DNA from: a virus
Direction: 5' to 3' (one strand)
Length of the DNA: 27,131 bases
Virus record (IMG/VR): IMGVR_UViG_3300024264_000141
Location: 1 to 27,131 of that record
Under the pieces are notes generated by a model. That model made no database searches, was not told where the DNA came from, and saw only the letters and a list, made by a program, of their open reading frames with translations. Made by a program: the position numbers and the translations under genes. Positions 339-18,203 of the stretch are shown in pieces (position 1 is the stretch's first letter; the number at the start of each line of letters is the position of its first letter).

Positions 339-1175
339 CTAGGCTTGTTTGCTGATGCTGATTCCGTAGTATTTGCTCATGGTGTCCCAAGCAACACCGG
401 ATATTAATTCGTCAGAGTTGAATTGTAAATTGGTTAAACAGTTGAACAGGTATTGTCTGTTTTCTGGGTAGTACAAGTTGTTAATTTTATCAATTGAGTT
501 TACACTGTAATCTTTTACACAGCCTGGCACAAGACTGATTACAGGACATCCTTCTCGTAGTGCTTCGGTCATTGCCATGGTGTGTAAACTGACCACACAG
601 TAAATGTTTTCTAAAGAATTACAAAAACCTCTTGAACCTCTTGCTTTCTTAGGCATCTTTTTTCTAATTTTGATTGGTCTGTTTGTGTATTTTTTAATTT
701 CTTGTGTAGTGGATTCTATCCATTGATCTACATTTTGTTTAATGCCATATACTTCTAATCCATTTTGACTAGGAGCAACGATGTATACTTGTTCCCCCAT
801 TTGCCACTGTTTTATTTTTAGTTTAAATTTAACAAATCGCTCGTTGGTGTATTCACCTTTTATATCTAAAATTTGATTTTCGTTGAATGTAACTCTCCAG
901 TAAACCGGTTTCCACCAATTACAATATCCTTTTTCAACGTTCACATAATCAATATTTTTTTCTTGAAAAGACTCATGATACTTTTGAAAACCATCATGTC
1001 CACCAACACCGCCAAGTATTACCAAATCTCCTTGTTGAATATTTTCAACATCTGAAAATATTTCTAAACCTGATCTTATACTGATTGTATTTGCCAATTG
1101 AAGACAGGTACGTCTACTGGTTCCTAAGTCTAAACCTTTGGGTATTACTATTCTTTTGTATGATTTATTCGTCAT
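339..1175 (-). CDS. Capsule-synthesis-like (KpsC/KpsS-fold) protein, remote member of a four-member family
   Basis: 278 aa from ATG at 1175, overlapping the end of gp41 by 11 bases; a TTG one codon earlier is the only alternative. The C-terminal half has the pattern of the glycan-cluster proteins at 12830, 14489 and 15433. It has a strand ending IKIRKK, then VVSLHTMAMTEALREGCPVIS (a Rossmann strand, small-residue loop, helix with Glu, then Gly-x-Pro), then YYPENRQYLFNCL, similar to the SPxxPNRxxW stretch of the others. The N-terminal half shares YVNVEKGYCNWW with the tyrosine/glycine segment of the 15433 protein. In capsule synthases of the KpsC/KpsS type these segments form the C-terminal nucleotide-sugar-binding Rossmann domain. 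The Arg-Pro-His-Pro motif of the 12830 relative is absent here (IRKKMPKK), so transferase activity is doubtful. It is the last gene of the gp41 unit. Confidence 0.6.
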   Translation of the reverse strand: MTNKSYKRIVIPKGLDLGTSRRTCLQLANTISIRSGLEIFSDVENIQQGDLVILGGVGGHDGFQKYHESFQEKNIDYVNVEKGYCNWWKPVYWRVTFNENQILDIKGEYTNERFVKFKLKIKQWQMGEQVYIVAPSQNGLEVYGIKQNVDQWIESTTQEIKKYTNRPIKIRKKMPKKARGSRGFCNSLENIYCVVSLHTMAMTEALREGCPVISLVPGCVKDYSVNSIDKINNLYYPENRQYLFNCLTNLQFNSDELISGVAWDTMSKYYGISISKQA

Positions 1176-2622
1176 CAAGGTTCTTTAAAAAGTCCCTTAA
1201 TTTTGTTTGATCTGTATTATCTGTATTGGCTTTGTGCAACGACTCTCCCTTTGTAGGATTAGGAACTTTTTCTTGAGGTTCTGGCGAATCAGTTGCATTA
1301 TCTTCTATAACTGTTGAAGTTTTTTTCAATGAATTGTATATGGTACTATTACCACCACCACTACCGTAATTTTGTCCCGACTCGTCTTCTGCTAAATCTC
1401 TAATTCTTAAACTGTCTATATCAAATTCTAAATCAATCTTTTGACCAACACCACTAGATGATCTGGTTTTCATTAATTGTATTTGATATCTACCACGCTC
1501 ACGCATCGCTCTTGATGTGAATATACCAAACACATTGTCAGCAGTTTGTATTTTACTTAATCCTCCTGCTATGTGCGAATGATCAAATTCTATTTCTTCA
1601 ACTGCACCTCTGTTCAACTGTGATGCTGTTACAAATATTACATTTAATTCCATTGATAAGTTTCTTAATTCTTCAGAAACAAATTTGTCTTTTACAAAAA
1701 GATCAGCCGGTGATACTTTTTTATTGATCGGCATCATGAGATCCAAATAGTCAACTAGTATAACATCTAGTTTACTGCCAGTTTTAATTTCATATTCTTT
1801 GATATAACTTCTTAAATCGTTTGTGTTCTTACCACTGCTCATGTATTTGATTTGAAACTTGCCTGATTTTTTACCAAGCAGTTTAACTTTCATTTCTACA
1901 CCATCTAAATCTTTAAATATTTCTCTAGCAGGCACATCAGTCAGCATAGAATCTAATCTCATACTTACTAGTGCTTCACTTAATTCAAAAGTTATGTATG
2001 CAACATTCAATCCATTTAATACCCAATTACAACCTAAGTTTGCAAGGAACAAACTCTTACCTGCTCCTGATCCACCAGCAAAAATGTTAAGTTCACCTTT
2101 GTTAAATCCGCCAAACAGTTTTCTGTCTAATGTTGTCCAGCCTGTGCTCACTTGTCCATTTTGATCTTTCAACCCCATCAATCTTGCTTTGGGATCGTCA
2201 AAATAATCTGTTCCTATATCTTTGTGTAATCCTATTTGTACTGCCTTCTTGACCAATTCTTCAACAGGACCGTACTCGCCGTTTTCCAACATATCAGCAC
2301 TTTTTAAAATTGCTCTTTCTAAACTTTTGTGTCTGATAAATGTTTCAAAGTCATCTAATAACCAATTGAAATGTTCTTCAGTCAAACTTTCTGCTGGCTT
2401 TAATTCAATATTGCACGACTTGTTCACAATGTCGTATGTTGGCAATGAGTTGTATTCTGCTACATATTTGTTAACAAAGTCTGCTGTTTCTTGAAGTTTT
2501 CTATCAAACAGTGTGTAATCAAATATGGATTGACAACGCACAAATGTTTCTGCGTCACTTAACATCATTTCAAGATACAGTTTCTGTATCTCGTAACCGT
2601 AGTCTTTATTTTGTTTCACCAT
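1165..2622 (-). CDS. 41: Replicative DNA helicase, DnaB family (T4 gp41)
   Basis: 485 aa from ATG at 2622. This is the hexameric 5'-3' helicase that unwinds the fork and works with primase gp61. Residues 1-130 form the helical N-terminal domain. Walker A GGSGAGKS is at 183-190, Walker B is seen as VILVDYLDLM, followed by the TASQLNR segment and KTRSSSGVGQKIDLEFD, as in DnaB ATPase cores. The acidic, low-complexity tail (about the last 70 residues) fits the flexible gp41 C-terminus. The frame is open for 22 codons further upstream, but I chose 2622 because MVKQNKDYGYEIQ begins the recognisable domain and a consensus promoter ends 7 bases before it. The gene overlaps the end of the carbamoyltransferase gene by 17 bases. 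Length is close to T4 gp41 (about 475 aa). Confidence 0.95.
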   Translation of the reverse strand: MVKQNKDYGYEIQKLYLEMMLSDAETFVRCQSIFDYTLFDRKLQETADFVNKYVAEYNSLPTYDIVNKSCNIELKPAESLTEEHFNWLLDDFETFIRHKSLERAILKSADMLENGEYGPVEELVKKAVQIGLHKDIGTDYFDDPKARLMGLKDQNGQVSTGWTTLDRKLFGGFNKGELNIFAGGSGAGKSLFLANLGCNWVLNGLNVAYITFELSEALVSMRLDSMLTDVPAREIFKDLDGVEMKVKLLGKKSGKFQIKYMSSGKNTNDLRSYIKEYEIKTGSKLDVILVDYLDLMMPINKKVSPADLFVKDKFVSEELRNLSMELNVIFVTASQLNRGAVEEIEFDHSHIAGGLSKIQTADNVFGIFTSRAMRERGRYQIQLMKTRSSSGVGQKIDLEFDIDSLRIRDLAEDESGQNYGSGGGNSTIYNSLKKTSTVIEDNATDSPEPQEKVPNPTKGESLHKANTDNTDQTKLRDFLKNLDDE

Positions 2623-3616
2623 TGTCCTTATTATACCACATTTCTCCGTGAAAGTCAATGTGCTTTTGATATTTGGCACACACTGCACCTATACACGATC
2701 CAGGATCACCAGGATTTGTTGGCACCCATATATCATCCCAAACTGCACTTAATTTACTCACAGCAGTTTTATTCAATGCACATCCGCCTACCAAAACTAT
2801 GTTTGATGTGTTGATATGCATCTGTATCCACGAACTTGCACACATCAACACTTGTTCAAAAATGTGCTGTGTAGTTGCGGCTAGATCAGCCATGTCTTCT
2901 TCTGTGTTTAATTCTGGTCTCCACCAATTACAACCTCTATGCAGATTTATTCTTGTTTTGAAAGGCATTCTGGTGTCTATAATTTCTTCCATCATCATTC
3001 TATGATACTTTCTCCAATTACCTTTTTTCGCCAATTGTTCTAATTTGTATTCTTCTGCGTTTGCTTTGAATCCACATCTTTGTGTCATTGCTGAATAAAA
3101 TAAACCTATGCTGTGTGGATAACGTTGTGTGTACTTCTTCTCCAACCTGGTACCTCTGCCGTGCCAAATAGTAAATGTTTCAAACTCACCAATCGAATCT
3201 AAAACAATAACTGCCGCATTTTTAAATCCCGATGTGTAATATCCATATGCCGCATGGCTATGATGATGATCAACATATTCTATAGGAACATTGTGTACAC
3301 CAGATTTTGCCAAAAACTTTTTAATATCATTTTCTTTCCATTTCCAACCTTGTCCTGCAATCAGTTGTCTCATAGTTTTCTTCCAAGGCTTTTCATAAAA
3401 ATAAATCTTTGCAGGGTAGGCCCATTTAGGATTTGCTCTTACTTCTGCCATCAGTTTAGGACACAACGTTGGATCTCCAGCAACTCCACTAAAATCTTTG
3501 CTCATGCCTGCCCATTTTAATCTAAGATGGTAATTAGGCGTTAATCCTTTTACCTTCCATTCCATCACTGCCAAACTGGCATCGTGATTATTTCCTGTTA
3601 TTCCCCAAATGATCAT
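2606..3616 (-). CDS. Carbamoyltransferase, NodU/CmcH family, short phage form
   Basis: 336 aa from ATG at 3616, with a 4-base ATGA overlap with the 58-aa gene upstream. NodU/CmcH/TobZ enzymes transfer a carbamoyl group from carbamoyl phosphate, through carbamoyl-AMP, to a hydroxyl, usually of a sugar. The family opening GITGNNHDASLAV is at 6-18, the metal-binding run HHHSH at 117-121, and the ASKHA-fold phosphate loops follow (VLDSIGEFET near 138-147, then IVLVGGCALN). Full-length NodU-type enzymes are about 550-600 aa with a separate C-terminal carbamoyltransferase domain. This protein ends soon after the first domain, so it is about 60 percent of usual length with no sign of frameshift. It sits between primase and helicase genes. 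The substrate is unknown; a sugar made by the glycan block is a reasonable guess. Confidence 0.85.
   Translation of the reverse strand: MIIWGITGNNHDASLAVMEWKVKGLTPNYHLRLKWAGMSKDFSGVAGDPTLCPKLMAEVRANPKWAYPAKIYFYEKPWKKTMRQLIAGQGWKWKENDIKKFLAKSGVHNVPIEYVDHHHSHAAYGYYTSGFKNAAVIVLDSIGEFETFTIWHGRGTRLEKKYTQRYPHSIGLFYSAMTQRCGFKANAEEYKLEQLAKKGNWRKYHRMMMEEIIDTRMPFKTRINLHRGCNWWRPELNTEEDMADLAATTQHIFEQVLMCASSWIQMHINTSNIVLVGGCALNKTAVSKLSAVWDDIWVPTNPGDPGSCIGAVCAKYQKHIDFHGEMWYNKDNGETK
2630..2658 (-). promoter_or_regulatory. Sigma70-like early promoter for gp41
   Basis: On the minus strand TTGACT (2653-2658) and TATAAT (2630-2635) are separated by exactly 17 bp. The element lies inside the 3' end of the carbamoyltransferase gene. 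The gp41 ATG begins 7 bases after the -10 box, so the predicted start of transcription falls about at the start codon. AAGGA lies between, but too close to the ATG for a normal Shine-Dalgarno. Confidence 0.8.
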
Positions 3617-3790: not shown

Positions 3791-3925
3791 CTACTTGTAT
3801 ATGAACGGGTCTCTCTTTTGCAATTCTCTAATCTTCTTCTTGTACTTGATGTAGTTTACAAGTTTAGTGATAGGAAAAAACAAAATTGAGATCGCTTTTT
3901 TTAAAAAATTCTTTATGCGAACCAT
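3791..3925 (-). CDS. Very small basic protein with a hydrophobic segment, 44 aa
   Basis: The minus-strand ORF runs from ATG at 3925, inside the last codons of gp61, to TAG at 3791-3793. It begins MVRIKNFLKKAISILFFPIT, a short hydrophobic stretch flanked by lysines, and ends IRELQKRDPFIYK after a strongly basic helix. This looks like a single-pass or peripheral membrane peptide with positive flanks. The RDPFIY ending resembles short proteins next to T4-like cyanophage replication genes, from memory. It overlaps gp61 by 13 bases and is followed after one base by the 58-aa gene, so the chain gp61, 44 aa, 58 aa, carbamoyltransferase is unbroken. Function unknown. Confidence 0.65.
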   Translation of the reverse strand: MVRIKNFLKKAISILFFPITKLVNYIKYKKKIRELQKRDPFIYK

Positions 3926-4917
3926 TTTTTCATCCTTAGTTTAGTTTTTAGTTGTGAATCTTCAGCATTCTTTATTATTGTATACAATGTATGAAGTCTA
4001 CCATATTTACACACAGCATCGTTGACGTCTTTGACATCTTGGTCCCAATCCGGCATACTCACACTCCAGCCTGCTTCGAAACTATCCCAAACTAATTTTT
4101 GTCCTGCTTCATCTCTGTCAGGAACCACAATCACATGTTTTCCTAAACTGTTTACCAATGTTGATTGTTGTTCTTTAATTTCACTACCCAGTAACGCAAT
4201 CCCGTCAACGGCAATAGCATCGATAGGTCCTTCCATTGCTACAATATATTTTCTATCATCATCTTGTGCATCTGTGTTAAACACATATCCTGGTTGTTGT
4301 TCTGACAAATATTTCACTTTGCTTTCCACAACTTTCCTGGCTGTGTATCCCACAATTTTTGATTGATGAATAAAAGGTATGATTAATCTATCTCTAAATC
4401 CTGCTTCAGGACTCCAGTAAAAATCATAATCATCGAGTGTTAATTTTCTTTTAGCAATGTATTCCATCACAGAAAATAAATCTTTATCAACTCCACTGGG
4501 TTCTAAATCTTTGTATGTTGCCCACTCGTATATTGGTTTTGCTTTGGGCGGAAGTTCTTTAATTGTAAATTTTGGAAGTGTGACAATTGACTTGAATCCT
4601 GTATCATCTGTCTTTTGTTGTAAAACTTGAAGTGCTAGTTTTGTGATTACATCATCGGGCATATTCAACCACCTCATAAATTTTTTCATTTTATAAGATA
4701 AGTTTCTCCCAATACGCCAACTCGTTTTAAATCCACAGTTGAAACAATGAAAACTCACACTCTCGTCTGCCTTAGCAATCAATCCACCTCTTTGTCTAGT
4801 GTCAGGAGTTGTTCCATTGTGTCCACAACACGGTGCATTAAAAGCCACCCAACCACTGGGTGTTTGTTTTCTTTTGGCAGGAAGATAAGTTTGTAAAACG
4901 TCAAGCACAATGTTCAT
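3913..4917 (-). CDS. 61: DNA primase (T4 gp61)
   Basis: 334 aa, ATG at 4917. This primase makes the short RNA primers for lagging-strand synthesis and pairs with helicase gp41, encoded just downstream. The N-terminus carries a zinc-binding module: Cys30 and Cys31 in APCCGHNG, then Cys58 and Cys61 in FHCFNCGFK. The TOPRIM catalytic core follows: the acidic motif VAMEGPIDAIA with Glu229 and Asp233, and the DxD-type motif VVPDRDEAG with Asp267 and Asp269. RDRLIIPF at 175-182 is the usual strand-rich entry to the primase fold. Length is close to T4 gp61 (342 aa). A perfect sigma70-like promoter ends 6 bases before the ATG, and there is no Shine-Dalgarno in between. Confidence 0.95.
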   Translation of the reverse strand: MNIVLDVLQTYLPAKRKQTPSGWVAFNAPCCGHNGTTPDTRQRGGLIAKADESVSFHCFNCGFKTSWRIGRNLSYKMKKFMRWLNMPDDVITKLALQVLQQKTDDTGFKSIVTLPKFTIKELPPKAKPIYEWATYKDLEPSGVDKDLFSVMEYIAKRKLTLDDYDFYWSPEAGFRDRLIIPFIHQSKIVGYTARKVVESKVKYLSEQQPGYVFNTDAQDDDRKYIVAMEGPIDAIAVDGIALLGSEIKEQQSTLVNSLGKHVIVVPDRDEAGQKLVWDSFEAGWSVSMPDWDQDVKDVNDAVCKYGRLHTLYTIIKNAEDSQLKTKLRMKKWFA

Positions 4918-4952: not shown

Positions 4953-5738
4953 TTAATTTCGAATTAATATTTTGGTAACACTACCAGAAGTCAGTGTGTG
5001 TTTGAATCTCAAATAACTGTACACTCCATTGAAGTTTACATATTTCAAGTTATTTGCATCTGTGGATGCGAATGTATTAATGTCTGTCCAAAATGTGTTT
5101 CCATCAATCTGATTGGCAAGGGTGCCTTGTACAACTATGTCACCAACTGCTTCGTCAAGATAATAAGCCACAGTGTGCAATGCTGAATTACCATTTATGG
5201 TTGGTTCTGCTGTTACTGTTTCTGAAACGAACACACCCGAACCTGGGTTGTCTTCGATGAATGTTGTCACAGAGTACGAGTCAACTGGACCTGGGAACTC
5301 TTCTGTGCTGATGTACACTGTGCCTTTATTTTCAAAATTTACACCACTGTGCAATATAGTTTTTGTTGAATCAGAATTTTTTTGTAGATACACTGTGTAG
5401 TGCATGTATTGTGATTTAATGTTTAATAAGTCATTTTCTGTTATTGTAACTGTGAAATGTCCCACTTTGCTGGGAGTAGAAGTTTCAATCACAGTACCGT
5501 CTCTTGATACTATTAATCTGTTATTTTCATCATACAATTGAAACTTGGGCGTATATGTGTTCAATATAGATACAGGTTTCTGATCTGCATTAAGCACATT
5601 GAACTGAATTGGGTTGTCTATTCCTTTAGCGATGTTTAAATTTCTTTGATACACTGATCTATACTCCGTTATTTCTCCTGCCAGGTTTGCGGTAAGAGTT
5701 ACATTGTTATTTAATAAATATTTCGAAACAAGTTGCAT
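4953..5738 (-). CDS. Probable virion structural protein, beta-rich
   Basis: 261 aa, ATG at 5738. The protein is rich in Thr, Ser, Val and Asn with many alternating hydrophobic strands and no enzymatic motif. Recognisable stretches are YRSVYQRNLNIAKGIDNPI near the N-terminus, VGHFTVTITENDLLNIKSQY, and FNGVYSYLRF near the C-terminus. From memory these match an unnamed, widely conserved protein of T4-like cyanophages regarded as a structural component. The strand-rich make-up and the late-type element before it support a virion role such as neck, tail or capsid decoration. It is flanked by a divergent plus-strand gene upstream and by the gp61 promoter downstream, so it seems to form its own single-gene late unit. 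Confidence 0.6.
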   Translation of the reverse strand: MQLVSKYLLNNNVTLTANLAGEITEYRSVYQRNLNIAKGIDNPIQFNVLNADQKPVSILNTYTPKFQLYDENNRLIVSRDGTVIETSTPSKVGHFTVTITENDLLNIKSQYMHYTVYLQKNSDSTKTILHSGVNFENKGTVYISTEEFPGPVDSYSVTTFIEDNPGSGVFVSETVTAEPTINGNSALHTVAYYLDEAVGDIVVQGTLANQIDGNTFWTDINTFASTDANNLKYVNFNGVYSYLRFKHTLTSGSVTKILIRN

Positions 5739-5764: not shown

Positions 5765-6130
5765 ATGCTATTAAACGACATCGAAAAGAACTTTCCGTTT
5801 ATCTCAGTCGTCGAATACGGCGGAAAAGAGTATGTTGGGGTAATCAACAACCAAGATAACTCCATCACCTCCATTTATGTGTACGAAGAAATACATGCAA
5901 ATGCCAAGGAAGAGTTTATGAGTTTATGTCAAACTTGGTGGTGGGAAAGCAACAGAATGATCCCAATGGGTATATTTTTACGTAAAGAATTAATCAAATT
6001 TCGCGAGTGTTTGATGATGATGAACACGAAAGATGTCAATGTAAAGATAGGTCCTGTCACAAGTCTTAACAATCTTGCTATGAAACGAAGTAAGAGAAAA
6101 TCAGTTCAACTAGTTCGTAAACCTAAATAA
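5765..6130 (+). CDS. Conserved hypothetical protein, 121 aa, only complete plus-strand gene
   Basis: ATG at 5765, TAA at 6128-6130. The protein starts MLLNDIEKNFPFISVVEYGG, continues GVINNQDNSITSIYVYEE, has a tryptophan-rich segment WWWESNRMIP at about residues 58-67, and ends in a strongly basic tail KRSKRKSVQLVRKPK. The tail suggests nucleic acid or other polyanion contact. From memory it resembles an unnamed protein shared by T4-like cyanophages. It is divergent from the structural gene (the two starts are 26 bases apart) and its stop codon abuts the stop of the minus-strand gene at 6131 with no space. An AATAAATA octamer on the plus strand at 5713-5720 could serve it, but lies inside the opposite gene. 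No function can be assigned. Confidence 0.75.
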   Translation: MLLNDIEKNFPFISVVEYGGKEYVGVINNQDNSITSIYVYEEIHANAKEEFMSLCQTWWWESNRMIPMGIFLRKELIKFRECLMMMNTKDVNVKIGPVTSLNNLAMKRSKRKSVQLVRKPK

Positions 6131-6688
6131 TCAAGTTAATTGTTCACAGATAAGATTCATGTGTACCACCACTGCGAATGCGTAGGATGTTGCGTGTGAT
6201 TTCTTAAAAAAGTATTTGTCGTCAGTTGGTTTAATCCAAACTTCTTTCATTATTGTGTCCCAATCTTTATTGAGTAGATATCTTTTGCTAGGTCGTATAA
6301 TTGCCAACACAGCCGCCAATTGTTCTATATTTTTTGGCTTTAATGTTTTTAAAATATCATTATGTCCGTTCAAGTGGAAAACTTGATCACTAAATTCTTT
6401 GGCTTCTAATAATTCCCATACTGGTTTTGTTGTCATTAATTTGTTTAAGTGATCGTTGTCTTTTACATTTTTGTATATACTTACATTTAAGCAATCCAAT
6501 TTAAAATAGTTTCTATCTTCAGCAGTTTCATAATCTAAAGTAGATAGATTAGTTGCAGGGTCATGCGGTATCTCTGTAAAGTAAACACCAGTATTGTGCT
6601 TTTTACCATTTTCTAATTTGGCTACTCTGTGTTTTAGTTTTTCTAATAACACATTTCTATCTGCAAAGTCTATATCTACATCAAACAT
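6131..6688 (-). CDS. Miniature DnaE-like protein (C-family polymerase core motifs), 185 aa
   Basis: ATG at 6688 overlaps the stop of the oxygenase gene by one base (TAATG), so the protein really begins MFDVDIDF. In order it shows: DIDF (Asp5, Asp7), like the DxD of the bacterial Pol III alpha palm; KKHNTGVYF at 29-37, like KHAGGVVI; YFKLDCLNVS at 61-70 with Asp65, like VKFDFLGLRT; WELLEAKEFSDQVFHLNGHN and LKTLKPKNIEQLAAVLAIIRP, like the FQLES...LKPxxFEDLxAxxALxRPG stretch; and FFKKSHATSYAFAVV at 160-174, like FNKSHSAAYALVSY. The order matches DnaE, yet the whole protein is about one sixth of its length, without PHP, most of the fingers, beta-binding or OB regions. Similarity is from reading motifs, not from alignment software. 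Whether it polymerises DNA is unknown. Confidence 0.6.
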   Translation of the reverse strand: MFDVDIDFADRNVLLEKLKHRVAKLENGKKHNTGVYFTEIPHDPATNLSTLDYETAEDRNYFKLDCLNVSIYKNVKDNDHLNKLMTTKPVWELLEAKEFSDQVFHLNGHNDILKTLKPKNIEQLAAVLAIIRPSKRYLLNKDWDTIMKEVWIKPTDDKYFFKKSHATSYAFAVVVHMNLICEQLT

Positions 6689-7341
6689 TATAATACCAAT
6701 TTACTGTGTCCGCCACCTATTTCACCTTTAACCCAAACATTAAATGACAGTGTGTGTCTTACATTAGTTGTGCTAGTGTTGGCTTCAACACTGTGATTTA
6801 AAAAACTTGGAAACATAACTAAATCCCATTTCTTTGGACTAATTGCCATTTTAGATTGATGATATAGATAACTTCTTTTGTTAACATAATCGAATTCATC
6901 TTTGTGATCTAATTTTACTGTATCAGTAAAAATATTTGTATGATTTTTATCTTTATGAAATACAATATTTGCTGTGTCTTGACAGTCTGATAAAAATAAT
7001 ACTCCGGATATTAAACTGTTACTATGATAATGTTCTTGTATAAAATGATTATGTTCATATCTATTACACCAACTTGTTGTGATAATAAATCTATGCTTTT
7101 CGTGTATGTCTAAATATCCATGCATAAATTCGCTTACCTGAGTTTCAATTTCATTTTTGAGTGGCATCAAGTTTTCATTATCTAGTACGTAATCATCTTT
7201 AGATATGTATGATACTTTGTGTGATCGTTCAACATATTCTATTTTTTCTTTTAGAAAGTTTTCACTTTCTTCATATGGTTGTATTTGTGTTTGACAAAGT
7301 GGTATTCCAAACAATGGAACAACATTGTGTTCTTTGATCAT
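6688..7341 (-). CDS. 2-oxoglutarate/Fe(II)-dependent oxygenase
   Basis: 217 aa; ATG at 7341 overlaps the upstream stop as ATGA. The double-stranded beta-helix iron site is visible: HYHSNSLISGVLFLSD with His104 and His106 near the first iron-ligand position, His183 in FPSFLNHSVEAN as the distal ligand, and Arg195 in VRHTLSFNVWV as the 2-oxoglutarate anchor. This is the pattern of the putative 2OG-Fe(II) oxygenases common in T4-like cyanophages and pelagiphages. They hydroxylate an unknown target, possibly a protein or nucleic acid. Length is normal for the group. It lies between the zinc-finger protein and the DnaE-like protein in the uvsW unit. Substrate not predictable. Confidence 0.82.
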   Translation of the reverse strand: MIKEHNVVPLFGIPLCQTQIQPYEESENFLKEKIEYVERSHKVSYISKDDYVLDNENLMPLKNEIETQVSEFMHGYLDIHEKHRFIITTSWCNRYEHNHFIQEHYHSNSLISGVLFLSDCQDTANIVFHKDKNHTNIFTDTVKLDHKDEFDYVNKRSYLYHQSKMAISPKKWDLVMFPSFLNHSVEANTSTTNVRHTLSFNVWVKGEIGGGHSKLVL

Positions 7342-8021
7342 AGTCCTGCCTCCTTTACAATTTCTTTTATCATTTCAATATCTGCTGGTAATCGCTTAAA
7401 TCTTAATGCCCAATGTGATGGATCCATCACCGGATACACAATCTGTAATTGTTCATCATTAAATTTCTTCATCATAACTTTACCGCTTTTACAATTTAAT
7501 ATCAACCAAGGAGATATCTTTCCGTCTTTAATATCAATTACTGCTCTGTTTAGACTTGCATATCTAAAATAATCTCCCCATGGTGCTTGTTTTTCGTCTC
7601 CCCAATCCATCATAGTTTTGATTGATCTTTCCATGGCTGTTTCAACCGGTTCTCTTAAAATTAAATCTCCTGCATATTTCAAATACATTTCTTCTCTGCA
7701 CCAATGATCTAGTTTTACGCCAGATGTAACAACATAATCGATATACTTGTTTGGATACAACGGCTTAACATTACTGATAAAACTGCCAAATTTTACAAAT
7801 GCTGTATAATAAGGAGACTTACAAAAGTCTTCATACGATTTTGATTTACTAGATTTTTGACATAGTTCATAAAATCTCATAAATGTTTGATATCCTAGTT
7901 GTACTCTACGTTCATCTTTTTGTACAAATCTTCGTTTTTGTTCACACATATGCACTGATAAAGTTTTTTCTTTGGCAAATTTTGCATTACAGTATTTGCA
8001 CGAATAAAGTTTTTCAATCAT
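7338..8021 (-). CDS. Conserved protein with N-terminal C2HC zinc finger
   Basis: 227 aa; ATG at 8021 overlaps the stop of the preceding gene by one base. Residues 8-26 form a zinc-finger-like module with Cys8, Cys11, His24 and Cys26 (CKYCNAKFAKEKTLSVHMC), followed by a basic stretch EQKRR. The rest is a mixed alpha/beta domain with conserved-looking stretches such as YEDFCKSPYYTAFVKFG and ISPWLILNC. From memory a protein of this build and length recurs in T4-like cyanophages without an assigned function. The finger and its place among replication and recombination genes suggest nucleic-acid or protein binding. I cannot tell whether it is a regulator or a repair factor. Confidence 0.75.
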   Translation of the reverse strand: MIEKLYSCKYCNAKFAKEKTLSVHMCEQKRRFVQKDERRVQLGYQTFMRFYELCQKSSKSKSYEDFCKSPYYTAFVKFGSFISNVKPLYPNKYIDYVVTSGVKLDHWCREEMYLKYAGDLILREPVETAMERSIKTMMDWGDEKQAPWGDYFRYASLNRAVIDIKDGKISPWLILNCKSGKVMMKKFNDEQLQIVYPVMDPSHWALRFKRLPADIEMIKEIVKEAGL

Positions 8022-8500
8022 TAAAATGTTTTCTTAATTTGTTCTTTCGTCATTCCTGAATCTTCTGCTAACTGTTTTAATTCTTTAGTTGAGTTGATGC
8101 TTGCCAGTAATCTTAATTCGTCTTGTTTTCTAGATGGATATAATTTTTCTAAAAACTTCATTGCTTTTGCTGTACTGTTACTACCTTTTTGTTTGTATCC
8201 AATCCATTCGTGATATTTTATTGATTTCGTATCATTAGCAGTCATGCAAAGCAAATACCATAATAGTTTTTTGTGTTTGGATAATGTAAAAAAATGTTTA
8301 TTGTAATACTGATTTGTTTTAAATATTTGTAATTGTTTTTCTTCTGATGTACCTTTGATAGCACTGGCATATCTGTTCAACAGATAAAACGATACCTGTT
8401 TGCGTTCGTCATCAGACAAGTCGTTCCATACATTTTTAGCATTCATGTCGATAGCCGCCAATATATCTTTTAAAGGTAGTTTGTTAGTGTTGTTTACCAT
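8021..8500 (-). CDS. Conserved hypothetical protein, helical, 159 aa
   Basis: ATG at 8500 overlaps the upstream stop by 7 bases. The sequence predicts mostly helices: LPLKDILAAIDMNAKNVWND at the N-terminus, then FYLLNRYASAIKG, NQYYNKHFFTLSKHKKLLWY, an aromatic end YHEWIGYKQKG, and a C-terminal LKQLAEDSGMTKEQIKK that resembles a small helix-turn-helix. I considered the clamp-loader small subunit gp62, which has a similar ring of features (xNRY, Nx5-8, KKxLWxLL, W), but the match is too loose to name, and no gp44 gene is next to it. From memory the protein recurs in T4-like cyanophages. Function unknown. Confidence 0.6.
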   Translation of the reverse strand: MVNNTNKLPLKDILAAIDMNAKNVWNDLSDDERKQVSFYLLNRYASAIKGTSEEKQLQIFKTNQYYNKHFFTLSKHKKLLWYLLCMTANDTKSIKYHEWIGYKQKGSNSTAKAMKFLEKLYPSRKQDELRLLASINSTKELKQLAEDSGMTKEQIKKTF

Positions 8501-9248: not shown

Positions 9249-10069
9249 TTGTTTGTTCCTTCCATAAATGAATGAGTTATGTCGCTGTGATCGTAATAAA
9301 AGTAGTGAGTGCCTGTCTTGGGTGCCTGATATTTTGCCTCTAATGGAAGATAAATTCCTGATGTAAACGATGTACCGTCTTCTGACTCTGAGCCATGTAT
9401 ATGCCAAGGATTATCAACACTTAATATTGGTGTGTTAGTGGCATATGATACAAACTGCATACAAGCGTCATGAAATTTGTCATGTATTAATTTGATGTGT
9501 TTGCCTTGATCTTTTTGTGTGTTACTGGCATGAATTATTAAAGCAACTTCTTCTTGTTTAAGTTTACTAGCAAGATTTTCGCCTCCCCAATAATAATTTC
9601 CTACAAGATCATTACAGATAAGAGCACCAATTTTCATTTTTTCTTCTCCTGCTGTAAGTGTAATAACTGGAGTTTTAGTTTCTTTTTCACAATCTGAATC
9701 AAAACTTACAATTTTAGTTTTTTTCGTAGACCCAATGTATTCTCCTTCTTGATTGTAAAATCTTAATTGATTTGATTTGAATCCAAAGTAAGCACCATTA
9801 ATTTTATCTTTATCGTCTAACCAAAGTGTTCCTATGATCAATCCCAACTTGTTGTTTGAAGCATACTCTACTAATTTTGCCATTGCATCTTCAGTTTCTT
9901 TGCAAGTGTTCAAAGTAAATGCTGGTGTGTTGTATCCACTCAATGATGTTTCAGGTGTAAACAAATAATCTACTTTGTTTTCTACTGCCCATTCGCATGC
10001 TTTCATTATTGCTTCAGCATTTGTTTTCACATCATTTGTTACTGGTATTTGTGCTCCTGCTATTCTCAT
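9245..10069 (-). CDS. Carbon-nitrogen hydrolase (nitrilase/amidase superfamily)
   Basis: 274 aa from ATG at 10069, an ATGA overlap with the uvsW stop; a TTG three codons earlier is less likely. The fold's Glu-Lys-Cys triad is present. Glu40 lies in LFTPETSLSGY, the Lys is at 116-118 in STKKTKIV, and Cys152 lies in IGALICNDLVGN, followed by ASNT at 181-184 in the place of the usual xxPS/xNA turn. Such enzymes hydrolyse amides or nitriles, or transfer the acyl group; some act on N-carbamoyl compounds or as glutaminase domains. Length is normal for a stand-alone member. Lying between uvsW and conserved phage hypotheticals it looks like an accessory metabolic insertion. The substrate cannot be predicted. 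Confidence 0.85.
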   Translation of the reverse strand: MRIAGAQIPVTNDVKTNAEAIMKACEWAVENKVDYLFTPETSLSGYNTPAFTLNTCKETEDAMAKLVEYASNNKLGLIIGTLWLDDKDKINGAYFGFKSNQLRFYNQEGEYIGSTKKTKIVSFDSDCEKETKTPVITLTAGEEKMKIGALICNDLVGNYYWGGENLASKLKQEEVALIIHASNTQKDQGKHIKLIHDKFHDACMQFVSYATNTPILSVDNPWHIHGSESEDGTSFTSGIYLPLEAKYQAPKTGTHYFYYDHSDITHSFMEGTNK

Positions 10070-11523
10070 TTTGTCCAATCCAACTTTTCTATTGTAAAAG
10101 GATAATTTGCATCCTTATAAAATTTTTTTCTATGTGTTAAATGTCTTTTAGCAAATTTACAACTTGAAGTTAAGTCCCATATCTGCACAAAGTCTTTGTC
10201 TTCTGCCTTACGTATGCCTCTTCCAATTGATTGAATCACCCTAACAAACGACTTGCCTGGCTCAATTAATATTAGATTGAATATTCTTGGTATGTTAATA
10301 CCCACACTGGCTACACCATAAGTTGCTATGATAACTTTGTTAGTGCCTTCTTTGATTGTATCGTAAGTTTCTTTTCTATCTACTAACTTGGTTTCTCCTT
10401 GAATAAACACACTATCATCTACTATTTCGCTCAAGCTCTTTCCTGCTGTTAATCTATCAACTAACACAAGAGTGTTTCCTCCGCTTTTAATTTTATTAAT
10501 CATCTTGCCAATGTATTCTATTCTTTTTTCATTAGTGACCAAGTATTTTAATTCTTCTTGATAATTTGTATAAACTTCGGTATCGATCAGTTGTACAACA
10601 TTCACATGACATGTAGATAATACACCCTTGTCTTGCAATTCTTTTGCTGATATTTGATTAACAACAGGACCTATACTTGCTAATATACTTTGAAATTCAA
10701 ATTGTTCTTTAGGCACTGTGCCTGTTAACCCCCATCTTACAGGAGCATTTTTTAGATGCTGTGTTAATAATTTTTTAAGAACTTCTGCTTTTGCTTGGTG
10801 AACTTCGTCTATAATAACAGTTTTAACACCTTCTAAAAAATCAGACAATGTCAAAACAGATTCGCCTGCTTTAGATTTTTTATCTAAAACATTTAAACTT
10901 TGCCAAGTACAAATTGTGTGTGTACGGTTTAATTCTTTTCTATCTCCAAAGTAAACACCAACATCTAAACCAACATTGATATAATCTTCTTCTGTTTGAG
11001 TCACAAGACCTTTGTTGGGCACAATTACTAGAGTACGTCCAAATTTTTCGCATATACTACTCAATGCCGCTGTGATAATTGTTTTACCAGCACCAGTGGC
11101 AACTTCCTGTAAACTTTGTGGTTCTTTAATAAAATTATTAATTACATCAACTTGATAATCTCTCAGTTCGATTGGTTGACCTTCGCATATGTGACCTTTG
11201 GGCCACGACTTACTTGCAAAAAAATCTTTAGTAACTTTATCAAATGTTAAATCAAACTTTTCTCTTTTGTCATCTACTTCTTCTATCTCAACACCCGATT
11301 CGTTAAGATATTCTATAATTTTATCCAAATGATTAACGTATCCATTACCACCTAAACCAAAGAAACCAACCTTACCATCCCATCGTCCTAGTTTGTATTG
11401 TGGTAAGTACCTTGCATAAGGAACTGAAAATTTTAGTTTGTTAGCAATCTTTCTTCTAACATCAACAGGCAATCCTTCAATTTTTACATTGACTTCATCT
11501 GTGATTATAATTTTACATCTCAT
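10066..11523 (-). CDS. uvsW: UvsW, SF2 RNA-DNA / branch-migration helicase
   Basis: 485 aa from ATG at 11523. In T4, UvsW unwinds R-loops at origins, rewinds and migrates branched DNA, and shifts replication from origin-dependent to recombination-dependent. The N-terminal substrate domain (about 1-110) contains PQYKLGRWDGKVGFF, typical of UvsW. The SF2 core follows: Q-motif-like ELRDYQ near 119-124, Walker A ATGAGKT at 142-148, DEVH at 239-242, the LTGTV motif near 266-270, and motif VI QSIGRGIRK at 431-439. Length is close to T4 UvsW (503 aa). I prefer 11523 over an open TTG/ATG extension of 11 codons because it overlaps the upstream stop as ATGA. It is the second gene of the unit starting at 12806. 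Confidence 0.95.
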   Translation of the reverse strand: MRCKIIITDEVNVKIEGLPVDVRRKIANKLKFSVPYARYLPQYKLGRWDGKVGFFGLGGNGYVNHLDKIIEYLNESGVEIEEVDDKREKFDLTFDKVTKDFFASKSWPKGHICEGQPIELRDYQVDVINNFIKEPQSLQEVATGAGKTIITAALSSICEKFGRTLVIVPNKGLVTQTEEDYINVGLDVGVYFGDRKELNRTHTICTWQSLNVLDKKSKAGESVLTLSDFLEGVKTVIIDEVHQAKAEVLKKLLTQHLKNAPVRWGLTGTVPKEQFEFQSILASIGPVVNQISAKELQDKGVLSTCHVNVVQLIDTEVYTNYQEELKYLVTNEKRIEYIGKMINKIKSGGNTLVLVDRLTAGKSLSEIVDDSVFIQGETKLVDRKETYDTIKEGTNKVIIATYGVASVGINIPRIFNLILIEPGKSFVRVIQSIGRGIRKAEDKDFVQIWDLTSSCKFAKRHLTHRKKFYKDANYPFTIEKLDWTK

Positions 11524-12806
11524 ACAGTGTCTGCTCCAAAATGAACTTGACTCCAAAAACTATCTTGACCATTGATTTGTAATTGTAAATCAATTGTGCC
11601 AACGTATTTGTCTACCTTAGAATAATTTCTAGTGTTATCACAAATTAGTACTGCTTCTGATTCCCATTCAGATGTCAGTAATGGCTTTGGAATCTTCTTA
11701 CTAGTAATATACACTATTTTTGTTGATTTTGCAAGTGAATTATTTAATCGATTATCTTTGATGTAGTCATTAAATTCTTTACCAAAAGTTGTTGAGTTTT
11801 TGCATCTTGCCATTACAGCAATTTCATTATTTGGTATAATGTTTTTAAACAGTTTGTGTGTGCTATGCAAATCTGCTAGACATTCTTTTTCAGTGGAACC
11901 GCTAATAATTACCAGTAACGGAAATCTTCTCAATTCTGTAATGGTTTCGATTACTTGTTCCATGGGCCATTTTTTTAAATCTAAATTTATTCGAGGCCAC
12001 TGTCGTTCCAATATTGCTTTACTTAATGCAGATAAACTGTGTGTCGACTGTGCTAATTCTTTTTGGTCAAAGTGTTTTAATCCTAATTTTTCTTTTCTAT
12101 CATAATACAGATACAAATTTTCTTTAACAGGATCACCAAAATATTCTTGATGATATTTTGTTACAGTTTCGGAACTGTTTTTAATTTGATAATTATAAAT
12201 TCCTGGCACATACTGATCGGATTTTTTATAAATTTTTTCGCATTGATCATAAACATCAAGCAATACCGGATCTATATCTTTTATTTTGTTTTTAAATTTG
12301 GTTAAAAGTCTGTGTGTAACTTTTTCTGTGTAAGGCAATATGTATTTGTCTTTTAATTTTTGTGAATAGTATCTACTAATTGCGGGACCTAGTAATTTCT
12401 TAACTTCTGTGATAGTTTTTGAATATGTCATATTGAATGGAAATCTAGTTACAATCACTTTTTGTGGTGTAAATCCTGACCAAAACGGTTCTAAATATTT
12501 AGAGCCTTCTTCTAATCGTATATACTCGGTTCTATCTAAGTGTCTTAATGGTTGTCTAAGATTGTTCACACTGTTTTCTAAATCTATACCACGTATCTTA
12601 AATTGGGATTTGTATCGTGTGATTAATATTTTTTTTACTGCTTCCAGTTGTCTATCAGTTAATGCTGATCCTTTGAAAACCTTTTTTGCTATGTCGAAAA
12701 TGATCTTTTTATCTCTATCCAACACAATAAAAGCAGGAGTCACAGTAGCATTGACAGTAAGTCCCGCCATTGCTTCTAAACACTCTTCTATGGTAATTGA
12801 ACGCAT
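11520..12806 (-). CDS. Protein of unknown function coupled to uvsW, 428 aa
   Basis: ATG at 12806 directly follows a consensus promoter, and the stop overlaps the uvsW start as ATGA. No Walker or catalytic motif is visible. The N-terminal third has FIVLDRDKKIIFDIAKKVF then ALTDRQLEAVKKILITRYKS, a helical stretch like those preceding helicase cores in some phage proteins. The middle is rich in Lys and Tyr. The C-terminal third has two alternating strand-helix units, LLVIISGSTEKECL and TKIVYITSKKIPK, then SEAVLICDNT, as in a Rossmann-like domain. A non-catalytic helicase-like partner of UvsW is possible, but this rests only on context and fold impression. I do not recognise a named family. Confidence 0.7.
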   Translation of the reverse strand: MRSITIEECLEAMAGLTVNATVTPAFIVLDRDKKIIFDIAKKVFKGSALTDRQLEAVKKILITRYKSQFKIRGIDLENSVNNLRQPLRHLDRTEYIRLEEGSKYLEPFWSGFTPQKVIVTRFPFNMTYSKTITEVKKLLGPAISRYYSQKLKDKYILPYTEKVTHRLLTKFKNKIKDIDPVLLDVYDQCEKIYKKSDQYVPGIYNYQIKNSSETVTKYHQEYFGDPVKENLYLYYDRKEKLGLKHFDQKELAQSTHSLSALSKAILERQWPRINLDLKKWPMEQVIETITELRRFPLLVIISGSTEKECLADLHSTHKLFKNIIPNNEIAVMARCKNSTTFGKEFNDYIKDNRLNNSLAKSTKIVYITSKKIPKPLLTSEWESEAVLICDNTRNYSKVDKYVGTIDLQLQINGQDSFWSQVHFGADTV

Positions 12807-12812
12807 ACCAAT

Positions 12813-12841
12813 AGTATAAAGGATTTTGGTTAAAAAGTCAA
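12813..12841 (-). promoter_or_regulatory. Sigma70-like early promoter for the uvsW unit
   Basis: TTGACT (12836-12841) and TATACT (12813-12818) on the minus strand with a 17-bp spacer. The -35 box lies inside the last codons of the upstream gene. The ATG at 12806 begins 6 bases after the -10 box, and no Shine-Dalgarno lies between them. The first bases after the -35 box (TTT) also agree with the other two promoters. Confidence 0.8.
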
Positions 12842-13666
12842 TCTAGAAAATGGAATGCCTTGTGCAATTTCCTCAATGGTCCATTCAGTATGTGTGTAAT
12901 CATTGAGCCATTGCTGTCTATTGGGGGTCTTTGGGCTGTTAATGGTGCTAAAATCTGTGTTTGCAACATCGTATGCTAGACTTTGTTCGCTTACAAAAGC
13001 AGGTATTCCATTGAGTACAGCATGAACACCGGGATTACTGCTATGACTTACAACTGCCCAAACATTGGTAAAATTTAAATTGAAATCGTCATATGTGTTA
13101 GCAATCTGTTTGGGAATCTCGTAACCAACATTATCAAGCACAGGCAAATTTTTTAAAGGACATCTAGGGTGAGGTCTGACTATAATTTTTCTATCTGTGT
13201 GTTGTCTTATATTTTTTACGGTATCGATTACATATTGATCCAATGCAGGCATATCTTTCCACTGTTCACTTTTGATGTGTTGTAAACAAATCAGTATGTG
13301 TTCTCCGTCTGTACTCCATGGTCTTAATTCGATACCTAATTGTTGTGCTCTTTGACTATCGTTGTTGGTTGGCCCAAAGTCTGCTGATCTATTGATTCCG
13401 TTTATTCCAACTTTCCAAGTTGTGTTTCTTTTTATTCCACCCACTTCTATCACTAGAACATTTTTGTTTTGAGATCTGAATTTATCCCAAATAGGTTTAT
13501 TTTTCATCATTCTACCATGCCATAGCAATGACCAAATCACAGGAACATCTGTGTCTAAATTATTTTCGTCTACAGAGTGCCCTAATCGTTGTAACCCAGA
13601 CTTCACAGCCTCCCAAACTAATGGACTGTTTAATGGACCGTTGTCTGTGAATAAACTAAACTTCAT
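12830..13666 (-). CDS. Capsule-synthesis-like (KpsC/KpsS-fold) glycosyltransferase with RPHP motif
   Basis: 278 aa from ATG at 13666; a GTG six codons upstream is an alternative. It starts MKFSLFTDNGPLNS, a Rossmann-like strand-loop. The C-terminal domain holds IIVRPHPR at 161-168 and VVSHSSNPGVHAVLNGIPAF at 215-234, followed by SPKTPNRQQWLNDYTHTEWT. The His-Pro pair and the Ser-rich loop before a helix are the nucleotide-sugar (CMP-Kdo type) binding signatures of bacterial capsule synthases KpsC/KpsS. It shares LGIELRPW and the tail pattern with the 14489 protein, its closest relative here. This is the last gene of the glycan block, overlapping the previous gene by 11 bases and preceding the uvsW-unit promoter. 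Donor and acceptor unknown. Confidence 0.68.
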   Translation of the reverse strand: MKFSLFTDNGPLNSPLVWEAVKSGLQRLGHSVDENNLDTDVPVIWSLLWHGRMMKNKPIWDKFRSQNKNVLVIEVGGIKRNTTWKVGINGINRSADFGPTNNDSQRAQQLGIELRPWSTDGEHILICLQHIKSEQWKDMPALDQYVIDTVKNIRQHTDRKIIVRPHPRCPLKNLPVLDNVGYEIPKQIANTYDDFNLNFTNVWAVVSHSSNPGVHAVLNGIPAFVSEQSLAYDVANTDFSTINSPKTPNRQQWLNDYTHTEWTIEEIAQGIPFSRLTF

Positions 13667-14492
13667 TCCAATATGATTCTGCACGATTAGACAACAGATC
13701 TTTCTTTTGACTTTTGCCTTTGTTTTTTCTATCGCCCTTCATGTGATCAAAATAGTTTCCTAATACAGAATTAATTAAAGGGTGTCCACCGCCACCTGTT
13801 TTGGCAGTTTTATTATATATGTCTTGGGAATAATCATGAAAGTTTTTATCTATAGGCATTAACTGATTTAGTATCTTACCAAACACATAACTATCATGCC
13901 ATTCATCTAGTTTGAATATTCCGTTGTCTGCATCTTGGTACATACGTTCAAATTCATTTAAAAATTTTTTACAAGTATCGTGTTCAGTATTCAAACCATA
14001 AAATCCACACTCGGGCCAAGTTTGTGATCCTTTACCTCTTCCAACAAATGTTATCCACTTATCGCTTGGAAGTAGTTGTTGAAATTGTTCGTAATTGATA
14101 GGGGAATGCACATATGTGTCTCCATCAATCCACACAGTCCACTTGTCGTTATTTCTTTCAACAGCGTCAAACACTGCATACACTTTGTTAGCAAAACGTA
14201 CTGCGTCCCACTTAAATTTTTTATGATGATCTCTTGGACGTTTTTCTGGAAACGGACATTCACCATTTGCTTTAGGCACATTGCCCCAACGTGATTTAAA
14301 TTGATTTAACTTAACTAATTCTTTTGAATCTATAATTGTTATTTGATTTATGTCTGGATTTACAGGTGTACAATTTTCTGCATACACTAACAATTTGATT
14401 TTCTTATCAACATTTTTTGCAAAACTGTCTATGAATCTTTGTCCGTACAAGTCTAATCCTGCTTTATGAAATGTTGTTAATGCAGTAATCAT
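13656..14492 (-). CDS. GT-A-like glycosyltransferase with DGD motif
   Basis: 278 aa from ATG at 14492, an ATGA overlap with the gene upstream; a longer start at 14519 would overlap more. The protein opens MITALTTFHKAGLDLYGQRF, like glycosyltransferases that begin with a short strand and a donor-binding loop. The metal-binding DxD is Asp123-Gly-Asp125 in WTVWIDGDTYVHS, and a second conserved-looking region is CGFYGLNTEHDTCKKFLNEF. The C-terminal tail (about the last 45 residues) is basic and gly-rich (TGGGGHPLINS, then several lysines), not typical of GT-A enzymes. It sits between two KpsC/KpsS-like genes. Donor sugar unknown. Confidence 0.68.
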   Translation of the reverse strand: MITALTTFHKAGLDLYGQRFIDSFAKNVDKKIKLLVYAENCTPVNPDINQITIIDSKELVKLNQFKSRWGNVPKANGECPFPEKRPRDHHKKFKWDAVRFANKVYAVFDAVERNNDKWTVWIDGDTYVHSPINYEQFQQLLPSDKWITFVGRGKGSQTWPECGFYGLNTEHDTCKKFLNEFERMYQDADNGIFKLDEWHDSYVFGKILNQLMPIDKNFHDYSQDIYNKTAKTGGGGHPLINSVLGNYFDHMKGDRKNKGKSQKKDLLSNRAESYWNEV

Positions 14493-15436
14493 TTTACGTA
14501 ATTCCTTAAATGTTTCCATGCTAAACCTTGTTTTACTTCATCTAAGGTCCAATGGATCTGTGCTATGCGTCTGATCCATAGTTCTCTATCAAACTCTTTA
14601 GGAGATTCTATATCTTGCCATTTTTCTAAATTAACACCTTTGATTTGAGCACCATCTGGATCTGTTACCAATGTGGGTATACCTTCTATCACTGATGCCA
14701 CAGTTGGACTTGAATTATGACCAACAACTGCATGAGCATGAGCAAATTCGTCTATTAAATTCTTAGCACCGCTGATTACAATGTTTTGATAAGTTGATTG
14801 TCCACTGTTTATCCATTGTCTTACAAGAGAAACCCATTGTTTAGATGATTTATCTCCTGGATGAAATCTTATTCTAATTTCTTTTTTTGTAAAACTTCTT
14901 ATTTGTTGAATTGCGTGTTGCAACCAAACATTTACTTTTAATCCTCCCATGCTCCATCCGCCATCTCTTTGACAACAGATTAAAATGTATTTGCCTCCGC
15001 CCAATCTCCAAGGTTTTAAATCTATACCTAAATCTTTTTTAATTACTTCCCAACGCAATGGGTCTGGATTATCATAACAATATTCTGCTGTGTTAGGAAA
15101 AATTCCATCATAACCATAACGTAAATAATTTTTTGATTGAGTAGGATCAGCATACAAAAATAAACTTGAATCCACAATCATGGTGCGTTTGTTTCTTTTT
15201 TGCTGTTGTTCAAACACAGTTTTTCTCAACATAAGATGTCTGTGTTTTTGAGGTTGCTGATGCACAAATCCTTGCAACACAGAAACATCTGCTGGAATCA
15301 CTGTCCAAGAATTACTTATTATCCCTTTATCTCCGCATCTATTCACACCTTCAATAAAGTTTTTTATTATCAAAGGCTTTTGTGGTTTTTTATTTCCAGG
15401 CGGAATAACTTTCATATAACCTACAACACTTATCAT
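14489..15436 (-). CDS. Capsule-synthesis-like (KpsC/KpsS-fold) glycosyltransferase
   Basis: 315 aa; ATG at 15436 overlaps the upstream stop as ATGA. The N-terminal half holds VIPADVSVLQGFVHQ and a short Rossmann-like strand TMIVDSSLF. LGIDLKPW near 136-143 matches the 13666 relative. The C-terminal domain has IRIRFHPGDKSS with His192-Pro193, and AVVGHNSSPTVASVIEGIPT at 236-255. Then follows SPKEFDRELWIRRIAQIHWT, again the shared tail. The His-Pro and the Ser/Asn loop before a helix are the features expected for nucleotide-sugar binding in this fold, so activity is plausible. It is preceded by the 15433 relative and followed by a DGD glycosyltransferase. Confidence 0.68.
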   Translation of the reverse strand: MISVVGYMKVIPPGNKKPQKPLIIKNFIEGVNRCGDKGIISNSWTVIPADVSVLQGFVHQQPQKHRHLMLRKTVFEQQQKRNKRTMIVDSSLFLYADPTQSKNYLRYGYDGIFPNTAEYCYDNPDPLRWEVIKKDLGIDLKPWRLGGGKYILICCQRDGGWSMGGLKVNVWLQHAIQQIRSFTKKEIRIRFHPGDKSSKQWVSLVRQWINSGQSTYQNIVISGAKNLIDEFAHAHAVVGHNSSPTVASVIEGIPTLVTDPDGAQIKGVNLEKWQDIESPKEFDRELWIRRIAQIHWTLDEVKQGLAWKHLRNYVK

Positions 15437-16230: not shown

Positions 16231-16231
16231 A

Positions 16232-16915: not shown

Positions 16916-16923
16916 ATTGAAAT

Positions 16924-16931
16924 ATTTATTG
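16924..16931 (-). promoter_or_regulatory. T4-like late promoter element inside the glycan block
   Basis: AATAAATA on the minus strand in the 22-base gap between the genes ending at 16938 and starting at 16915. It is flanked by CCA before and TTTCA after, nearly as at 25933-25940 (CCAATAAATATTCA). The ATG is 8 bases downstream and there is no Shine-Dalgarno. Confidence 0.6.
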
Positions 16932-16937
16932 GCAAAT

Positions 16938-18202: not shown

Positions 18203-18203
18203 T

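Follow-up and report, generated by a model that had tools for sequence, protein, structure and literature searches.

The 27,131-nucleotide stretch of viral DNA analysed here (IMG/VR virus record IMGVR_UViG_3300024264_000141; hereafter the window) raises the question of what a protein of 185 amino acids is doing with the motifs of a bacterial replicase. Its open reading frame, on the minus strand at 6131–6688, opens with an ATG that overlaps the stop codon of the upstream gene (6688–7341) and encodes the N-terminus MFDVDIDF. The original prediction, made from the letters alone, took it for a stand-alone protein that keeps the motif order of DNA polymerase III alpha (Pol III alpha, DnaE) in miniature, either a reduced C-family polymerase or a new nucleotidyl transferase. 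We asked what the protein is, whether it is complete and what it might do.

Family profiles place the protein among relatives of Pol III alpha. The phage family phrog_11778, annotated 'DNA polymerase', matched it at E 2e-58 over profile positions 8–194 of 197, and two larger families, phrog_405 and phrog_12219, matched weakly. All four NCBIfam families found at E ≤ 0.01 are Pol III alpha models (best E 5e-4); the Pfam model DNA_pol3_finger gave E 0.0012, under its curated cut-off. As a single sequence against the PDB, the protein had no significant Pol III match: a designed helix bundle came first (E 0.63), and the best Pol III chain, M. tuberculosis DnaE1, stood at E 5. The link to Pol III therefore rests on family profiles and on fold. 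In PDB profile searches, where E-values are marginal for this protein alone as they are for the partner described below, seven of eight matches at E ≤ 10 were Pol III alpha for a profile of eight relatives (best 0.054), as were all six weak matches at E ≤ 10 in an hmmsearch with 50 relatives (best E 0.029). Aligned by hhalign to phage DnaE, the family profile scored 94.6% over 105 columns.

The predicted structure (pLDDT 88.4, pTM 0.70; mean pLDDT 66 over residues 1–10) aligned with Pol III alpha over 183 of its 185 residues in VIA-align (Z 9.0, rmsd 4.3). Eleven of the top 14 fold matches were Pol III alpha; the other three, titled only 'DNA polymerase', are probably PolC by the fit of their numbering, and the next unrelated match had Z 3.2. 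The model covered E. coli residues 400–780, Taq residues 461–837, and 970–1300 in the three chains with PolC-like numbering. A Z of 9 is moderate, since models that match nothing clearly often reach 7 to 8; we therefore place weight on how far the next match falls behind, on the coverage and on consistency with the profiles. The structural check that the original prediction had proposed held in VIA-align and in Foldseek's ranking, which put Pol III chains first, but yielded a single Foldseek match at E ≤ 0.001; the profile search proposed with it did find C-family matches. Profiles and fold together rule out a chance resemblance of motifs, the DnaE motifs do occur in the predicted order, and the idea of a reduced C-family relative is upheld. 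We are close to certain that what the gene encodes is the C-terminal half (C-half) of a Pol III alpha split in two.

To describe conservation, we took open reading frames matched at E ≤ 1e-15, merged identical ones and excluded weaker matches, which left 88 distinct C-halves and 71 distinct members of the partner family (N-halves). With the DxD register set on the PDIDIDF of M. tuberculosis DnaE1, D3, D5, D7, H31, K63, D65, R132, P133, K135, H165 and Y169 are invariant in 88/88 C-halves (Table 1). The three acidic palm positions thought to be kept (D5, D7 and D65) are thus among them. Predicted strands at E4–8 and E63–68, together with the alignment of nearly the whole protein to Pol III alpha, suggest that these three aspartates cluster in space; their counterparts in E. 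coli Pol III alpha we take to be 401, 403 and 555. The fine superposition is approximate, because VIA-align places its first matched residue 1–3 positions away from where the motif register would, and residues 1–10 average pLDDT 66. Counted from the farthest ATG, the C-half starts no more than two residues from the DxDxD motif in 59 of the 88 distinct members, and 12 of the 88 have no ATG at the start region. The 185-aa protein lacks GRGS, the nucleotide-binding motif of Pol III.

That motif is found in a second gene. With the Pfam model PF07733 we found an N-half in phages Phosso and Atu_ph07, 177 aa in each, ending in FDEFLN or FSEFLE and carrying GVGRGS near the end. The family, phrog_11127, is about 175 aa long. 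G.GRGS is invariant in all 70 rows (of 71 distinct N-halves) that have a letter there, and the stop codon follows 33–40 residues past the start of GRGS, exactly 33 in 51/70. Against the PDB, three N-halves gave five matches at E ≤ 1, four of them Pol III alpha (best 0.02), and a larger N-half profile gave nine at E ≤ 10, all Pol III alpha (best E 0.025). An N-half model from an IMG/VR record (L015; pLDDT 92.6) matched the fold of Pol III alpha at Z up to 12.6 over 95 residues, with residues 77/78–176 lying on E. coli 278–392 and Taq 294–454 and residues 86–176 on PolC 825–964; Foldseek ranked Pol III chains first, with none at E ≤ 0.001. All C-family fold matches of the N-half begin at residue 77 or later. 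Residues 1–77, which occupy the position of the PHP domain and are partly conserved (NRT..DYG in three rows; for example L015:10001-10528), could be a docking domain.

The two genes travel together. We defined long records as those of 193 kb or more (n = 20: seven named phages, 11 IMG/VR records, and two relatives of the window, G012 and G013, of 357,559 and 236,751 bases). All seven named phages, picked by their C-half, carry an N-half, as do both window relatives, picked in the same way; conversely, 10 of the 11 long IMG/VR records picked by their N-half carry a C-half, the exception being a 193-kb fragment. The N-half is thus present in 20/20 long records and both halves in 19/20, where they lie 15–230 kb apart. 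A stand-alone miniature polymerase, as originally envisaged, is ruled out by these records, in all of which the GRGS half is a separate, distant gene. We found no N-half in the window itself, which is a fragment, on the 44-kb contigs of its closest relatives, or in five relatives of 74–168 kb, two of which were matched only by single-chain DnaE. Among 209 sequences, no locus combines strong matches to both halves, and no open frame is a natural fusion of the two; the only double match is a single-chain DnaE (L119). The N-half lies near a clamp loader in Atu_ph07 and CBB, two of three genomes checked; in Phosso the 4.5 kb covered around it hold no clamp loader.

Where does the break between the halves fall? 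On E. coli Pol III alpha the N-half ends at 392 and the C-half starts at 400; on Taq Pol III the corresponding positions are 454 and 461. Six to eight positions separate these ranges, so the two proteins lie end to end along a single Pol III chain. Mapped onto M. tuberculosis DnaE1 (5lew, numbered by sequence), the N-half stops at 407, and D415 is the counterpart of the leading Asp in the C-half motif. In the predicted models, the chain is thus broken at a single short loop that follows the N-half and precedes the DxD strand. A joined profile, built from the halves of 19 genomes and searched with the database size set to 100,000, matched single-chain phage DnaE in 80/80 frames (best 4e-13, weakest 5e-8); the halves alone reached 1e-4 and 3e-3 at best, with 80 and 50 frames matched. 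In the three best joined matches the first segment (profile 102–181 or 109–181) runs unbroken across the junction, which is residue 169/170 in the Phosso row, and the second segment (167–305) comes after a part of the target equivalent to the missing region. Against reversed sequences there was no match.

Spacing between motifs locates what the C-half has lost. In M. tuberculosis DnaE1 the last DxD Asp (419) and the third Asp (581) are 162 residues apart, the third Asp and the RP Arg (661) 80, and the RP Arg and the NKSHA His (781) 120; the same intervals in the C-half measure 58, 67 and 33 (medians, 50 or 49 rows), and D7 to H31 takes 24–28 residues in 50/50 rows. These differences point to loss in two places, about 104 residues between the DxD motif and the third Asp and about 87 in the mid-fingers. 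The first gap is supported as the thumb region; the available text of PMC3919608 puts the thumb helix-loop-helix at Taq 513–552, within 461–837, and describes reduced thumbs in Thermotogae DnaE3 and PolC. The PHP domain, which precedes E. coli 278, is gone as well, as is everything past 780: the chain stops at the fingers helix, with no HhH, clamp-binding motif or OB domain. Compared with bacterial Pol III alpha (E. coli DnaE, M. tuberculosis DnaE1, Taq Pol III, PolC), the C-half therefore has the palm DxD, third Asp, KH-G, RP and K-x-H motifs in common order, but is about one sixth the size, has its palm split over two genes, and lacks the C-terminal domain along with the parts just listed.

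A split minimal Pol III alpha is already on record. Iyer et al. 2021 (PMC7824862), in the part available, describe one in 'group 2.2' jumbo phages that also carry a B-family polymerase, reduced more or less to the catalytic and template-binding domains, and propose that it works with PolB in one-strand synthesis or repair and models an ancestral form. The window protein is the same half by that description, its relatives have the distant second gene and PolB, and phrog_11778 would correspond to the C-terminal subunit described there. The 185-aa protein is hence a new marine example of an enzyme described from genomes in 2021, not a newly seen one; several records already label C-half members 'DNA polymerase' or 'DnaE-like'. 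The break-point residue and the thumb loss mapped here are absent from the available description. The N-half has been recorded too. CBB_328 of Pectobacterium phage CBB was noted in 2017 as a truncated Pol III alpha of 172 aa, according to the available text of PMC5259590, and Atu_ph07 gp316, an N-half, is listed in the genome paper (PMC6102473). CBB gp328, like the GAP32 'DNA polymerase III alpha subunit', is a member of the partner family and has GRGS and no Asp triad; the C-half of CBB is gp287. In the literature searched, which held few subscription journals and preprints, we found neither an activity test of the split enzyme nor any description of it besides PMC7824862.

The C-half recurs among large phages. 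By tblastn the 185-aa protein matched 63 phage records out of 50,697, never reaching 60% identity (33–52% among the best 60 of the 63 matches), and 57 of those best 60 records exceed 280 kb. RaK2, 121Q, GAP32, CBB, PA5oct, XacN1, Atu_ph07 and SCTP-2 are among the matched phages. At least 546 IMG/VR stretches encode a C-half; the viral scan with the SCTP-2 protein as query gave no matches. A scan of cellular contigs returned, among the matches listed, one full-length C-half (L241, PBPT01000082.1) on a contig binned with a Neomarinimicrobiota MAG, which is probably phage, or a hint of the host; two further matches were weak and partial.

The gene lies in a replication block, as its predicted setting in a uvsW operon implied. 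The block runs from UvsW through several genes without known function to the C-half, followed by the convergent phrog_11637, a structural protein, primase and helicase, and is kept across 80 IMG/VR loci, of which only those with enough sequence were counted for each neighbour (Table 1). The neighbourhood is arranged differently in phage XacN1. The window also encodes UvsY and a UvsX fragment. The gene at 6688–7341, whose end overlaps the C-half start, is a putative 2OG-Fe(II) oxygenase (PF13759, E 2.7e-16) with a counterpart in only 9 of the 78 related loci that extend far enough, and a Nol-like carbamoyltransferase gene (2606–3616) sits between primase and helicase.

Table 1. Coordinates in the window of the C-half gene, its motif codons and its neighbours, with conservation in distinct C-halves (motifs) or related IMG/VR loci (neighbours).
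Feature	Position	Strand	Conservation
C-terminal half of split minimal DNA polymerase III alpha (very probable), phrog_11778, 185 aa; catalytic, Mg-binding and fingers part	6131–6688	-	
D3-V-D5-I-D7-F8 codons, palm DxD motif	6665–6682	-	D3, D5, D7 each 88/88
K29–Y36 codons (KKHNTGVY), likely counterpart of the DnaE KH-G motif	6581–6604	-	H31 88/88
K63-L-D65-C-L67 codons, third catalytic Asp	6488–6502	-	K63, D65, L67 88/88
R132-P-S-K135 codons, fingers RPG counterpart	6284–6295	-	R132, P133, K135 88/88
K162-K-S-H165-A166 codons, NKSHA counterpart, end of fingers	6191–6205	-	H165 88/88
phrog_11637, convergent neighbour, no known function	5765–6130	+	75/75 loci
'Virion structural protein' by relatives' annotation	4953–5738	-	68/68 loci
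DnaG-type primase (T4 gp61-like)	3913–4917	-	62/63 loci
DnaB-like replicative helicase (T4 gp41-like)	1165–2688	-	51/52 loci
phrog_11058, no known function, upstream of C-half	7338–8021	-	78/80 loci
phrog_11758, no known function, upstream of C-half	8021–8500	-	78/80 loci
UvsW-type helicase, upstream in block	10066–11556	-	46/48 loci

What would two such halves do? The C-half bears the metal-binding half of the palm (D5, D7 and D65) and reduced fingers. We propose that during infection the N-half and C-half bind each other and restore a single palm domain. In it the N-half would help to hold the incoming dNTP and the C-half would hold the template and two Mg ions, and the rebuilt pair would thereby make DNA. 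The invariant C-half residues, together with the invariant GRGS, argue for retained catalysis in the split enzyme, and we judge that the two halves are probably an active two-chain polymerase. Since PHP, thumb and clamp-binding parts are missing, a short-range enzyme is to be expected, one that other replisome proteins would hold at the fork, in keeping with a C-half gene beside primase and helicase and an N-half gene near the clamp loader in two of three genomes. A B-family polymerase (PF00136), which the original prediction expected in this phage group, is encoded in 20/20 long records, and the most likely job of the split pair would be gap filling, primer extension or lesion repair beside that PolB replicase. 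An epsilon-like exonuclease (PF00929) occurs in only 8 of the 20, so a full alpha-epsilon core is not general and we did not adopt an obligatory epsilon proofreader.

The same PolB replicase, the loss of the thumb region and half of the fingers, and a gene embedded beside primase and helicase would also suit a catalytically silent part of the replisome, in which the split fold serves as a DNA- or protein-binding scaffold that holds primase and helicase or mimics host Pol III alpha to capture its partners. Such a scaffold would have no need of invariant D5, D7, D65, H31, R132 and H165 (88/88) or of GRGS (70/70). Host partners bind Pol III alpha at the PHP and OB domains, the clamp motif and the C-terminal domain, and these are the very parts that are gone. 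We hold a silent scaffold to be unlikely, if credible.

Somewhat less probable again is a transferase that works without a template to extend an end, a primer or a small molecule by one or a few nucleotides. The palm of Pol III is a Pol-beta-type nucleotidyltransferase fold, according to the available parts of PMC7824862 and PMC3919608, and loss of the thumb should weaken the grip on duplex DNA, both of which would fit this activity. The fingers residues of a DNA polymerase (RP and NKSHA-like) are nevertheless kept and invariant, and the gene stays within a DNA replication block whose primase and helicase are conserved in nearly every locus.

A further reading, that the C-half acts without its N-half, arises from some close marine relatives of the window. 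In these, the gene after the helicase encodes a single-chain, PHP-less DnaE of about 551 aa with the motifs of both halves (L211:1456-3111, L244:10001-11653, L212:3-1244), whose best NCBIfam match is 'error-prone DNA polymerase'. It adjoins the C-half region in some phages and, unlike the split C-half, is one chain with all motifs, including GS, and a C-terminal extension; DxD and KH are 82 residues apart in L211, against a median of 24 in C-halves. An IMG/VR scan gave 308 stretches that encode it. Of 37 C-half loci that extend 700 bases or more past the helicase, 8 have it; of 24 single-chain loci that include 9 kb or more of upstream sequence, 21 have a C-half 4–8.6 kb away. The two sets share some contigs. 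No N-half was found on nine contigs with the single-chain gene, which in turn is absent from all 20 long N-half records. This pattern would suit a C-half that acts alone or with the single-chain enzyme; yet the nine contigs are fragments of 42–101 kb, and with 15–230 kb between the halves in long records an N-half may lie beyond their ends. The window, moreover, has no single-chain DnaE but a different gene after its helicase, and contigs of its closest relatives (94–95% identical C-half) have neither N-half nor single-chain DnaE. We therefore consider action without an N-half very unlikely. For one marine clade, we give a low but somewhat better chance to replacement of the N-half, with the orphaned C-half working with or regulating the single-chain DnaE nearby; the replisome would then consist of PolB and one and a half bacterial-type polymerases. 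On such fragment contigs, the single-chain DnaE beside the C-half is a lead, not a result. In a 484-kb uncultured phage (LR756508.1), a single-chain DnaE of 574 aa (L236:5977-7701) is itself the sole phrog_11778 match, and no split C-half was found.

That the protein is a decaying, functionless relic of a host or phage dnaE gene, as its small size beside Pol III alpha might suggest, is so strongly disfavoured by its breadth (at least 546 IMG/VR stretches and 63 phage records), similar length and start, and invariant active site that we give it next to no weight.

If the two halves are active, as we favour, they would form a very small C-family polymerase, thumbless and in two chains, working beside a B-family replicase. 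Such an enzyme would show the minimum that a bacterial replicase needs and would test the published idea of its likeness to the ancestor of Pol III. With the break point mapped and the lost parts listed, the two proteins can readily be expressed and assayed, and the extra single-chain DnaE of the marine relatives offers a further lead.

Elsewhere in the window, a long run of minus-strand genes extends from UvsY to UvsW (12830–25926), many of them without a family. It includes three glycosyltransferase-25 genes, an NAD-dependent epimerase, two methyltransferases, of which one scores above and the other below its Pfam cut-off, and a GT8-like gene that is also below the cut-off, and looks like a glycan or surface-sugar island.
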